From contig JAEINR010000055.1 in assembly GCA_016342325.1 (NCBI GenBank), positions 1 through 42,566 of the forward strand: a stretch of DNA of 42,566 nt, read 5' to 3'. Source of the stretch: Desulfobacterium sp. Its GTDB lineage: Bacteria; Desulfobacterota; Desulfobacteria; Desulfobacterales; Desulfobacteraceae. The translations under genes were made by a program, and so were the position numbers. Of the stretch, positions 18,667 through 28,358 are shown piece by piece (the first letter of the stretch is position 1; every line of letters starts with the position of its first letter). Under the pieces are notes generated by a model. That model had not been told where the DNA came from. It worked only from the letters and a program-made list of their open reading frames with translations, and made no database searches.

Positions 18667-19698
18667 TCAAAAAAGATCCAGCTCCGCCATGTACCCTTCA
18701 AGGTCCACCAGGGGAATGGCCTCCACCACGGCCTGGCCCAGTCCCTTGAGCAACACAAAGTGGATCACCTCCCCTTCCCTTTTTTTGTCCCGGCGCAGGG
18801 CATCCACCACCTGCTTGGGGGAGAGGGAAAACCGGGTGGGAAGGTTGACATTTTTCAAAAGGGTCTCAATGCGATGGGCCTCTTCCGGACGCAAATACCC
18901 TTTCTTGACGGACAGGGCCGACGCCGCCACCATGCCGGCGGCCACGGCCTCACCATGGGGAACCTGGAGGATCTTCTCAAAAGCATGGCCAAAGGTGTGC
19001 CCGAAATTAAGCTTCCTGCGCTCCCCCTGCTCCCGTTCATCCCGGTTGACAATGGTGGATTTGATCACCACGGAATCATGCACCAGGCGCTCGATGGCTT
19101 CGGGGTCCAGTGCCAGGGCACGGTCATAGGAGGCTTCAAGGAACTCAAACATGGCCGGGTCCTCGATGCAGGCATGCTTGATGATCTCGGCCAGTCCGCA
19201 AAGGACCTCGCTCCGGGAAAGGGACTGCAGCAATGCCATGTCGCAGATCACAAATTCAGGCTGGTTAAACACCCCCACCATATTTTTATAGCCGGAGAAA
19301 TTCACCCCGTTTTTACCGCCCACACTGGCATCCACCTGGGCCAGCAGGGTGGAGGAAACAAACCCGAACCGAACCCCGCGAAGAAAGGTGGAGGCAACAA
19401 ACCCTGTAATATCGCAGACAATGCCCCCGCCAATGCCCACAATGAACCAGGAACGGTCCACCTCCAGCGCCACCAACTGCTGATAGATGGCCTGGACCGT
19501 TTCCAGGGTCTTTATCCCCTCTCCTGTGCCGATCTCAATGACCGGACAGGGGGGAAACTGATCCTGGTAAAGGGAACGCACATGGGCGTCTGTGATGATG
19601 ATCGTGTTTTCAGGAATATAGGTGGACAGGTTTCCCAGCCGTTCCCCAATGGCAAGGGTGGAACGGCCGGTACTGCCCTGGATATCAAGAATTTTCAT
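18667..19698 (-). CDS. aroB: 3-dehydroquinate synthase
   Basis: This is the second enzyme of the shikimate pathway, converting DAHP to 3-dehydroquinate with NAD and a divalent metal. The protein has the NAD-binding GIGGGIVCDITGFVAS, the DASVGGKNGVNF and YKNMVGVF motifs, and the metal-ligand block KLNFGHTFGHAFE. The 343 residues are full length. The start at 19698 has GGGAG 7 bases upstream. It lies 63 bases downstream of the DAHP synthase gene on the same strand, so the first two shikimate steps form one transcription unit. Both therefore sit under the attenuator upstream of the DAHP synthase gene. Confidence 0.95.
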   Translation of the reverse strand: MKILDIQGSTGRSTLAIGERLGNLSTYIPENTIIITDAHVRSLYQDQFPPCPVIEIGTGEGIKTLETVQAIYQQLVALEVDRSWFIVGIGGGIVCDITGFVASTFLRGVRFGFVSSTLLAQVDASVGGKNGVNFSGYKNMVGVFNQPEFVICDMALLQSLSRSEVLCGLAEIIKHACIEDPAMFEFLEASYDRALALDPEAIERLVHDSVVIKSTIVNRDEREQGERRKLNFGHTFGHAFEKILQVPHGEAVAAGMVAASALSVKKGYLRPEEAHRIETLLKNVNLPTRFSLSPKQVVDALRRDKKREGEVIHFVLLKGLGQAVVEAIPLVDLEGYMAELDLF

Positions 19699-19761: not shown

Positions 19762-20820
19762 TCAGGCCTGAACGTTTCCGGCCTTGAACTGGTCATGGGC
19801 CAACAGGATAAGCTGCTCCGTGGTTTCCCATGAGATGCACTCATCCGTGATGGAAACCCCGTACTTCAACTGTGACGGATCAACGTTGCAGGCCTGGCTG
19901 CCCTCGTTGAGATTGCTCTCGAGCATCATGCCCACCAGAGAATCATTGCCGTTGAGCCGCTGGTTCAGAACATCCTGCCACACCATGGCCTGGCCCTGGA
20001 ATTTTTTCCGTGAGTTGGCGTGGGAGCAGTCCACCACAATGGCCTGGGGCAGATCCCTTGACTTGAGCTGGGCCATGGCCTCCCCAACGCTCACGCAATC
20101 GTAATTGGGCCTGACCCCTCCCCTGAGCACGATGTGGGCCCCGGAATTGCCCTTGGTCTTGATGATGCTGGATCGGCCGTCGGGATCAATGCCCAGAAAA
20201 CTCTGGGGGGATCCGGCCGCCACCATGGCATTACAGGCATTGGCAAGGCCGCCGTCCGTGCAATTCTTAAATCCCACCGGCATGGAAAGCCCCGAGGCCA
20301 TGGCCCTGTGGGTCTGGGATTCCGTGGTTCTGGCCCCGATGGCGGCCCAGGAGACAAGACCTGCGATGTACTGGGGGGTGATGGGATCCAGCATCTCGGT
20401 TGCCGTGGGCACGCCCATGGCGGTGATATCCAAAAGCAGCTTCCGGGCCCTTTTCAGCCCAGCCGACATATCGCAGGAACCGTCCATGCAGGGATCATTG
20501 ATCAGCCCCTTCCATCCCACCGTTGTCCTGGGTTTTTCAAAGTAGACCCGCATGACAAGATAGAGGTGATCTTCCACCCGGCGGCTGAGATCCCTGAGCC
20601 CCTCGGCAAACTCCAGGGCGGCCTGGTCGTCATGGATGGAGCAAGGGCCGGTGACCACCAGCATTCGCTTGTCCTCCTTGCGCAAAATCTTCTCAATGGT
20701 TGCCCGGCTGGATTCCACCGTGGAAATATCCCTTTCCGTCATGGGCAGCTCCTGTTTCAAGGCGTTGGGGGAAATCAGGGGCTCAAAGGATGCCACATTT
20801 ACATCATAGGTCTGTTTCAT
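19762..20820 (-). CDS. 3-deoxy-7-phosphoheptulonate (DAHP) synthase, type I (AroF/G/H class)
   Basis: This enzyme condenses phosphoenolpyruvate and erythrose 4-phosphate in the first step of aromatic amino acid synthesis. Characteristic motifs include VVTGPCSIHD with the metal-binding Cys, MRVYFEKPRTTVGWKGLINDP, GARTTESQTHR, KGNSGAHIVLRGG and VDCSHANSRK. Its 352 residues match the E. coli AroF/G/H class, and the N-terminal extension typical of feedback-inhibited forms is present. The effector amino acid cannot be assigned safely. The start has AGGAG 8 bases upstream. Transcription is likely controlled by a leader peptide and tandem terminators at 20852-21023. aroB follows. Confidence 0.95.
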   Translation of the reverse strand: MKQTYDVNVASFEPLISPNALKQELPMTERDISTVESSRATIEKILRKEDKRMLVVTGPCSIHDDQAALEFAEGLRDLSRRVEDHLYLVMRVYFEKPRTTVGWKGLINDPCMDGSCDMSAGLKRARKLLLDITAMGVPTATEMLDPITPQYIAGLVSWAAIGARTTESQTHRAMASGLSMPVGFKNCTDGGLANACNAMVAAGSPQSFLGIDPDGRSSIIKTKGNSGAHIVLRGGVRPNYDCVSVGEAMAQLKSRDLPQAIVVDCSHANSRKKFQGQAMVWQDVLNQRLNGNDSLVGMMLESNLNEGSQACNVDPSQLKYGVSITDECISWETTEQLILLAHDQFKAGNVQA

Positions 20821-20851: not shown

Positions 20852-20884
20852 AAAAAAGCCGGGGAGCAGGAGCTTCTCCACGGC
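20852..20884 (-). terminator. second terminator in the DAHP synthase leader
   Basis: Read on the minus strand, GCCGTGGAG (20884-20876) and CTCCCCGGC (20866-20858) form a stem with one mismatch and a 9-base loop, followed by six T residues (20857-20852). It lies between the first attenuator hairpin and the DAHP synthase start. Its 5' arm is complementary to the 3' arm of the first hairpin. Confidence 0.6.
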
Positions 20885-20892
20885 CTTTAAAT

Positions 20893-20925
20893 AAAAAAAG
20901 CCGTGGGAAGATTGCCCACGGCTTT
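20893..20925 (-). terminator. attenuator hairpin of the DAHP synthase operon
   Basis: On the minus strand AAAGCCGTGGG (20925-20915) and CCCACGGCTTT (20907-20897) form a perfect 11-bp stem with a 7-base loop, followed by a T run (to 20893). It lies 26 bases after the stop codon of the aromatic leader peptide. This is a textbook intrinsic terminator placed before, not after, an operon. Confidence 0.85.
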
Positions 20926-20951: not shown

Positions 20952-21023
20952 TCAGCTCACCCCGGGCGGACGTATGGCGTAATAATAATACCAATAATAT
21001 ACGTCTGCAAAAAATCGGGACAT
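20952..21023 (-). CDS. aromatic leader peptide (Phe/Tyr/Trp codons) of the DAHP synthase operon
   Basis: This 23-residue open frame begins MSRFFADV, continues YYWYYYY and ends AIRPPGVS. It therefore contains two Phe, six Tyr and one Trp codon, nine aromatic residues within 12 positions (residues 4-15). AGAGGA lies 8 bases upstream of the ATG at 21023. It precedes an intrinsic terminator and the DAHP synthase and aroB genes. By the established logic of trp/phe/his attenuation, a ribosome stalling for lack of charged tRNA-Tyr (or Phe/Trp) would change leader RNA folding and allow read-through. The peptide itself is probably unimportant. Confidence 0.88.
   Translation of the reverse strand: MSRFFADVYYWYYYYAIRPPGVS
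20969..21005 (-). promoter_or_regulatory. 1:2 pause/anti-antiterminator hairpin of the aromatic leader
   Basis: GACGTAT (minus strand, 21005-20999) and ATACGTC (20975-20969) are perfect complements that bracket the tyrosine codon run of the leader peptide. A ribosome stalled on the Tyr codons would cover the first arm and free the second. The freed segment GCCATACG can pair partly with CGTGGGC in the 5' arm of the terminator. The role is inferred from the classical attenuator scheme. Confidence 0.6.
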
Positions 21024-21063
21024 GCAAGAGATCCTCTTTAAAGTGTGATTCGTTTCATCATTT

Positions 21064-21092
21064 CCCCTACCGCACCCATTTGAAGATGTCAA
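21064..21092 (-). promoter_or_regulatory. candidate sigma-70 promoter of the aromatic leader
   Basis: TTGACA on the minus strand (21092-21087) is a perfect -35 box 64 bases upstream of the leader ATG. With 17-base spacing the -10 would be TAGGGG (21069-21064), which is poor. The -35 is convincing and the -10 is not. Confidence 0.35.
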
Positions 21093-28273: not shown

Positions 28274-28358
28274 GCCGAAGTGGTGGAATTGGTAGACACG
28301 CACGCTTGAGGGGCGTGTGGGGCGACCCGTGGGAGTTCAAATCTCCCCTTCGGCACCA
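28274..28358 (+). tRNA. tRNA-Leu (anticodon GAG)
   Basis: Acceptor stem GCCGAAG pairs with CTTCGGC, followed by the discriminator A and an encoded CCA. The anticodon arm is CACGC-TTGAGGG-GCGTG with anticodon GAG, reading CUC/CUU. There is a long variable arm, as in class II tRNAs, and a T arm GGGAG-TTCAAAT-CTCCC. The gene is complete and has its own promoter and terminator. Confidence 0.97.

Follow-up and report, generated by a model that had tools for sequence, protein, structure and literature searches.

The window, the whole 42,566-nucleotide stretch of Desulfobacterium sp. DNA analysed here, carries a type I-alpha DAHP synthase gene on its minus strand (aroFGH, 19762–20820; TIGR00034, 459.5 bits, cut-off 173.2), followed on the same strand by the 3-dehydroquinate synthase gene aroB (18667–19698; TIGR01357, 334.1 bits, cut-off 305). 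The linkage of the two genes is local: among 69 loci with sufficient room, 18 have aroB no more than 600 nt downstream of the DAHP synthase. Upstream of the pair is a 23-codon leader ORF (20952–21023, on the minus strand like every feature of the locus described below) that encodes MSRFFADVYYWYYYYAIRPPGVS, as judged from its translation and from relatives. Codons 4–15 comprise two Phe, six Tyr, and one Trp: the two Phe codons (codons 4 and 5, 21009–21014) stand upstream of YYWYYYY (codons 9–15, 20979–20999), which translation and relatives mark as the control codons. The 131 nt between the leader ORF and the DAHP synthase gene contain an intrinsic terminator, T1, called at 20897–20925 with an 11-bp stem and a U-tract at 20893–20899. 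A hairpin scan also detected a terminator-like hairpin, T2, at about 20854–20888 (U-tract 20852–20857), and a ribosome site stands between T2 and the DAHP synthase gene. Elsewhere in the window, Rfam places a tRNA gene at 28274–28355 on the plus strand.

Upstream of the leader ORF, the SD-like hexamer AGAGGA (21032–21037) is a candidate ribosome-binding site, 8 nt before the ATG. Around it, AAGAGGATCTCTT at 21026–21038 is self-complementary and could hide the ribosome site; this feature was not seen in the sister species locus L003. An earlier note on this DNA had described the aromatic leader frame, its AGAGGA site, an intrinsic terminator, and the DAHP synthase–aroB pair, all of which we recovered. 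It had also named a perfect TTGACA box, and the match is exact (21087–21092, a candidate −35 box), but the hexamer 17 nt beyond it, TAGGGG, is a weak −10 and a promoter scan of the window made no call. By raw counts, 70 of 80 relatives have TTGAC 10–140 nt 5′ of the leader, and 53 have the full TTGACA. A promoter-like pair matching at least 10 of 12 letters was found in 25 of the 80 relatives versus 20 of 400 shuffles.

The leader and its control codons in relatives

We collected upstream regions of related DAHP synthase genes from two sources. A family sample gave a gene match in 77 of 86 genomes, with 30 loci among the matches listed, and the best 80 loci were taken from a named genome collection, in which 366 encoded a relative. 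Regions were merged when the last 220 nt of the extract (160 nt upstream plus 60 nt of the gene) were identical, and L077 was dropped because its upstream DNA was missing, which left 89 distinct upstream regions with the window counted in. Of the 89, 82 contain a short ORF in which 10 codons include 5 or more aromatics, although 132 of 890 dinucleotide shuffles and 12 of 89 antisense strands also reached this cut. TAT and TTT are common in AT-rich DNA, and the shuffles that reach five aromatics could suggest an AT-rich spacer that encodes Tyr codons by chance. At the stricter cut, however, at least 7 F/Y/W in 10 codons were found in 73 of 89 regions and in only 3 of 890 shuffles and 1 of 89 antisense strands. 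With the conserved helices described below, these counts leave a chance origin with practically negligible probability.

A terminator-like hairpin lies 8–49 nt past the leader stop in all 82 relatives with a leader (raw count). Both the aromatic codons and the terminator are thus conserved among DAHP synthase relatives, which was the check that the earlier note had called for. The upstream DNA was also read in 40 further family genomes, some of which supply the same genes as collection loci, and all 40 passed the looser cut of 5 aromatics in 10. Within the family, the leader is present in 69 of the 70 genomes read, and 7 of the 77 matched genomes fall outside this count. Typical leaders of relatives are YFYFWYYFYTGLPVLR, YYYFRTYYYRLLPVLF, and FFFWFYFSRDKDRFARG. 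The cultured relatives Desulfosarcina widdelii and Desulfocicer vacuolatum (loci L039 and L087) also have the leader. The leader was absent at 7 of the 89 loci (L006, L033, L050, L053, L076, L079, and L107), and L048 was scored as leader-bearing with poor 2:3 pairing (−4.5). At L006 (G077:C62), where the DAHP synthase has no adjacent leader, the covariance model introduced below has a match some 5.7 kb further upstream, on the contig and strand of the gene, which may mark where a longer operon begins.

The 82 leader cores together contain 334 Tyr, 266 Phe, and 44 Trp codons, and in 48 cores Tyr is commoner than Phe. The dominance of Tyr put forward in the earlier note holds for the window's species but does not extend to its relatives, as 80 of the 82 cores mix Phe and Tyr and 43 add Trp. 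The window has one of only two cores that lack an internal Phe, and its two Phe codons stand just upstream. Judged from these sequences, Tyr dominance is a quirk or local drift, in the window's species, of what appears to be a pooled Phe/Tyr sensor. Such control codons would pool amino acids. In theory, such control becomes less sensitive as the share of regulatory codons falls (PMC1183508), a cost that pooling would carry. As to a Trp-specific role of the central codon, the interior NGG codons of the cores are TGG in 40 cases, AGG in 10, GGG in 8, and CGG in 3. The central GG may be structural, since AGG, GGG, and CGG also occur there, yet TGG is over-represented.

Competing helices and tandem terminators

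The earlier note had proposed that a GACGTAT/ATACGTC pair brackets the Tyr codons as a 1:2 hairpin. This pair is present in the minimum free energy fold of the window (−44.8 kcal/mol, z −3.47), and none of 200 shuffles folded as low. Arm 1 (GACGTAT, 20999–21005) is lengthened in the fold by CCCG further upstream. Arm 2 (20959–20975), delimited by the fold, by duplex energies, and by pairing in relatives, has two parts: ATACGTC (20969–20975) is the partner of arm 1 in the fold, and GCCCGGGGT (20959–20967) is, by duplex energy, the partner of arm 3. Arm 3, GCCGTGGGC (20914–20922), is assigned from the 2:3 duplex energy and forms the 5′ side of T1, so T1 is helix 3:4. The 2:3 antiterminator and the second tandem hairpin were absent from the earlier note. 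In the window, the 1:2 and 2:3 duplexes are each worth −16.0 kcal/mol. Averaged over 82 loci, 1:2 reached −19.2 kcal/mol versus −12.1 with one partner shuffled, and 2:3 reached −19.6 kcal/mol versus −11.4 after shuffling.

We then examined the pairing in alignment A1, which holds 32 of the 82 leaders, hand-picked and with FFFWFYFSRDKDRF-type leaders excluded. Standard pairs filled 82.5% of the alignment cells for helix 1:2, 85.2% for 2:3, and 92.8% for 3:4, whereas only 28–59% were standard when the partner was slid by 1–3 columns. Changes on both sides were found at four pairs in each helix. Compared with shuffles that ignore relatedness among the sequences, the number of double-changed pairs was equalled by 7, 57, and 67 of 500 (1:2, 2:3, and 3:4, respectively), the number of cells with both-side changes by 0, 18, and 0, and the covariation score by 0, 1, and 0. 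Helix 2:3 is the least clearly above this control (18 and 46 of 500 on two measures). By these comparisons, the three predicted helices are conserved, and the 1:2 pairing noted earlier is among them. The window itself has a 1:2 register shifted by four (GACGTAT/ATACGTC instead of CAGGCAG/CTGCCTG), and despite this its arm 2 keeps the GCCCGGGGT:GCCGTGGGC option with arm 3.

The pairing also bears on two other ways of controlling such a leader. Many leaders end in a similar C-terminal tail (GLPVLR, GLPGVR), as might be expected if a TnaC-like nascent peptide arrested the ribosome on binding an aromatic ligand. Among 160 distinct leaders, however, the RNA motif of arm 2 is read in different frames in 67, 13, and 10 (the other 70 do not have the motif in its strict form), and the tails that result are unrelated (GLPGVR, DRFARG, and VCPSLR). 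Use of the motif in all three frames argues that the RNA and not the peptide tail is under selection, and the aromatic core interchanges Phe and Tyr freely. No conserved peptide at an arrest site was found among these leaders, and we give peptide arrest only a slim chance. Competing helices and a terminator before a biosynthetic gene would likewise fit a terminator controlled by a protein or ligand (TRAP- or T-box-like, or a riboswitch) with an incidental short ORF. Against this, 82 of 89 regions keep the aromatic ORF, which in the window overlaps arm 1, and no Rfam family reached its gathering score in the leader region; control of this kind is very improbable.

At equilibrium, the best fold of the window has 3:4 (−24.6), and 2:3 gives −17.4 before arm 4 exists. 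When each helix is forced, 3:4 reaches −42.4 kcal/mol versus −40.1 for 2:3. Once arm 4 has been made, 3:4 thus beats 2:3 at equilibrium, and antitermination would therefore have to be kinetic.

A T2 hairpin at −10 kcal/mol or better follows T1 in 36 of the 82 I-alpha leaders, mostly by 7–11 nt. Arm 5 (20878–20888) resembles arm 3 and can therefore pair with arm 4, an alternative supported by the 4:5 duplex energy: in the window, 4:5 is worth −17.6 to −18.6 kcal/mol, stronger than 5:6 (T2 itself) at −15.1. Among 34 I-alpha cases chosen by a T2 at −12 or better, 4:5 averaged −18.0 versus −9.0 kcal/mol when shuffled and −16.3 when arms were exchanged among loci (Wilcoxon p 0.005 for this last comparison). 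A scan of 205 regions gave 80 tandem pairs (42 I-alpha, 16 ADH synthase, 21 I-beta, and 1 dehydroquinate synthase II). Their own 4:5 averaged −17.4 kcal/mol versus −13.9 when swapped, and none of 5,000 permutations was as low, with the proviso that the set holds close relatives and near-identical genes and that its pairs are not independent.

These data can be read in two ways. In an otherwise plain attenuator, T2 might be a back-up terminator or a processing stem that is uncoupled from the 2:3 decision. More than half of the I-alpha leaders have a weak T2 or none and presumably function all the same, similar arms could arise if a terminator was duplicated, 5:6 is more stable than 4:5 in many relatives, and the near-identical genes among the tandem pairs weaken the swap comparison. 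A separate strong terminator, on the other hand, would keep the operon shut off despite antitermination at T1. Arms 4 and 5 of one locus also match better than arms swapped within gene classes (−17.4 versus −15.1 kcal/mol), and with 2:3 forced in the window the rest folds as 4:5, without 5:6. We are evenly divided on an uncoupled T2. A six-arm cascade that couples T2 to the 2:3 decision likewise has about even odds. The predicted full-length minimum of the window nests 4:5 inside a 3:6 helix, and this nest could itself terminate.

Related leaders before other aromatic genes

The genome encodes three types of DAHP synthase, namely I-alpha (in the window), I-beta (L112), and type II (L114), as well as an ADH synthase. 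The I-beta gene (G000:C120; L112 2497–2850, minus strand) is preceded by a Trp leader of its own, MNYYQTEIVFFAACQFSAAGKWWRSWTPRDARTLFSV, that contains KWWRSW and is accompanied by two hairpins with U-tracts. At least 3 Trp in 8 codons were found in 22 of 50 I-beta upstream regions of the family, versus 3 of 1,000 shuffles and 0 of 50 antisense strands. The earlier note had placed the DAHP synthase of the window at the common entry step, which overstated its position, given the three DAHP synthase types and the ADH synthase, with leaders of their own before I-beta and ADH synthase. We also considered an ORF before the type II gene, MDTPIFIWLWFFITGLKRHQYVVS, and took it as a chance occurrence; no like ORF was found at the other 24 type II loci and no conserved leader was seen in the 25. 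A few of the other type II loci have 4–6 aromatics in 10 codons in mutually unlike ORFs.

We built a covariance model (R1) from the I-alpha leaders alone and searched with it blind to genes. Besides the window, its second strong match in this genome is at C77:7048–7213 (E 2.8e-18). The site (L236 1420–1760, minus strand) has a Phe/Tyr leader, MNTLNADTFYFYFRYYYFNTGLPVVH, and tandem hairpins, a build like that in the window, followed by an ADH synthase gene (TIGR01949, 338.5 bits, cut-off 299.45). The second ORF is a partial 3-dehydroquinate synthase II-like gene, cut by the locus edge, that scores 252 bits, below the cut-off of 392. ADH synthase with a dehydroquinate synthase II-like enzyme is an archaeal-type entry. 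The ADH synthase query matched 16 of 86 family genomes, of which 12, at 28–34% identity, were presumed to be other aldolases; all four genomes with at least 66% identity have a model match about 60 nt upstream of the gene.

Two further matches of R1 in the same genome are weak and were not accepted as aromatic leaders. The one on C68 is found on both strands, and no ORF there reaches 5 aromatics in 10 codons. The one on C63 has a branched-chain-rich ORF before ilvD, and R1 therefore also catches other attenuators. The short ORF at that site (L262, G000:C63:55341–55492) is MIRNLIINLLLSVDVVEVIIITFRGKG, and from its sequence it looks like a branched-chain attenuator.

Across the phylum, R1 had matches at E ≤ 0.01 in 204 of 395 genomes. 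We read individually all 90 sites down to E 8.1e-7 (rough E-values), excluding that of the window. Of these best matches, 75 lie before aromatic genes of the common pathway, which belong to several unrelated kinds: ADH synthase (30), I-beta DAHP synthase (23), I-alpha DAHP synthase (11), shikimate kinase and/or chorismate synthase (10), and dehydroquinate synthase II (1). Another two precede an ADP-forming acyl-CoA ligase, two run off contigs, and 11 had no BLAST placement. Nine of these 11 were scanned, and indolepyruvate oxidoreductase, an aminotransferase, and ilvD were among the downstream genes; the rest of the nine gave one weak match to an amino-acid transporter, two weak matches to a metallo-beta-lactamase fold, and three without any match. 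At 84 of the 90 sites there is an ORF that reaches 5 aromatics in 10 codons, a cut that is sometimes passed by chance.

Single sites of this set were also noted. At L320, a short ORF with WWWW precedes the indolepyruvate ferredoxin oxidoreductase alpha subunit. Tyr-rich leaders precede the ADP-forming acyl-CoA ligase at L248 and L255, the latter with eight consecutive Tyr, and the ligase perhaps serves aryl-acid salvage. Those at L278 and L286 are also Tyr-rich and precede the proteins with weak metallo-beta-lactamase-fold matches.

Proposed mechanism and known systems

The window thus has a short leader ORF in which codons for products of the pathway are clustered, control codons at arm 1, an arm 2 that can switch to arm 3, and a 3:4 helix that is, by sequence, an intrinsic terminator before the structural gene. 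We are confident that transcription attenuation by this element is ribosome-mediated and of the trp/phe/his type, with a leader that would be translated, would respond to aminoacyl-tRNA, and would control termination. A ribosome would trail RNA polymerase into the leader. With ample charged Tyr and Phe tRNA (here also Trp), it would pass the aromatic codons, reach the stop, and mask arm 2, and 3:4 would form and end transcription at T1, or further on at T2. A shortage of any one of these tRNAs would stall the ribosome in the aromatic stretch on arm 1, leaving arm 2 free to form the 2:3 antiterminator instead of T1. Arm 4 might then pair with arm 5 and prevent T2, the least certain step. With both terminators disarmed, DAHP synthase and aroB would be transcribed.

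The E. coli trp, pheA, and pheST attenuators have control codons over arm 1, a 2:3 antiterminator, and a 3:4 terminator, and each senses one amino acid and has one terminator. The window shares this mechanism and differs in its several amino acids and tandem terminators. The his-operon leader has six alternating arms, of which only the last hairpin is known as a terminator; the window shares its chain of arms, but here 3:4 and 5:6 both end in U-tracts. A C. glutamicum aroR-aroF attenuator was reportedly described by Neshat et al in 2014, and Camakaris is said to have raised the E. coli aroF-tyrA attenuation hypothesis in 1980.

According to the accessible portions of two papers, Corynebacterium glutamicum aroR-aroF has a Phe-Tyr-Phe leader that mediates ribosome-dependent attenuation of a DAHP synthase operon and responds to limitation of Phe, not Tyr (PMC11802643, PMC4046766). 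The likeness, as far as these portions go, is a Phe/Tyr leader before a DAHP synthase operon under ribosome-mediated attenuation, with three control codons in a row there and typically seven to ten here. The earlier note had called the design unusual; the pooled codons are indeed among the new features, whereas a Phe/Tyr leader has this precedent. An Acholeplasma aroF motif, uORFC-13-1, is predicted to comprise a leader containing one or more Phe codons and a terminator, both upstream of DAHP synthase; the excerpted account gives 24 representatives from one genus and environmental DNA, at aroF only (PMC8632094). Tyr-tRNA sensing before DAHP synthase has likewise been proposed for E. coli aroF-tyrA, and RNA motifs are predicted for Shewanella aroF and aroH, but in the part of the source available these are a hypothesis and a table entry, with no leader of the window's kind (PMC2659441). 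For Phe or Tyr operons of Actinobacteria, the corresponding part of another survey reports no such elements (PMC1262725). In the accessible text of a 2004 paper on regulation in delta-proteobacteria, the terms 'aromatic' and 'leader peptide' do not occur (PMC545781). Our search of the open-licence literature found no report of an attenuated DAHP synthase in this phylum, and no paper on tandem terminators with leader-peptide attenuation or on leader-peptide attenuation for aromatic amino acids in Desulfovibrio. The kind of element is already known, and what is new is that it stands before unrelated entry genes, with pooled codons and terminators in tandem.

Taken further, these observations could describe a phylum-wide regulon in which one RNA design with pooled aromatic codons stands before unrelated enzymes (I-alpha, I-beta, ADH synthase, and shikimate kinase–chorismate synthase). 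In many members it would form a six-arm cascade in which one stalled ribosome disarms two tandem terminators, as 2:3 frees arm 4 and 4:5 spoils 5:6. The isozymes in the window's family would split the sensing, with Phe/Tyr(/Trp) for I-alpha and ADH synthase and Trp for I-beta. We hold this full picture tentatively, at somewhat less than an even chance. Control of aromatic entry in E. coli relies instead on repressors and isozyme feedback. If the picture is true, many members of the phylum, sulfate reducers and their kin, would gate entry into the aromatic pathway through the speed of translation at mixed Phe/Tyr/Trp codons. The leaders would then be natural multi-amino-acid 'OR' sensors with a tandem-terminator cascade, and their sequence signature would flag aromatic-pathway genes in unannotated genomes.
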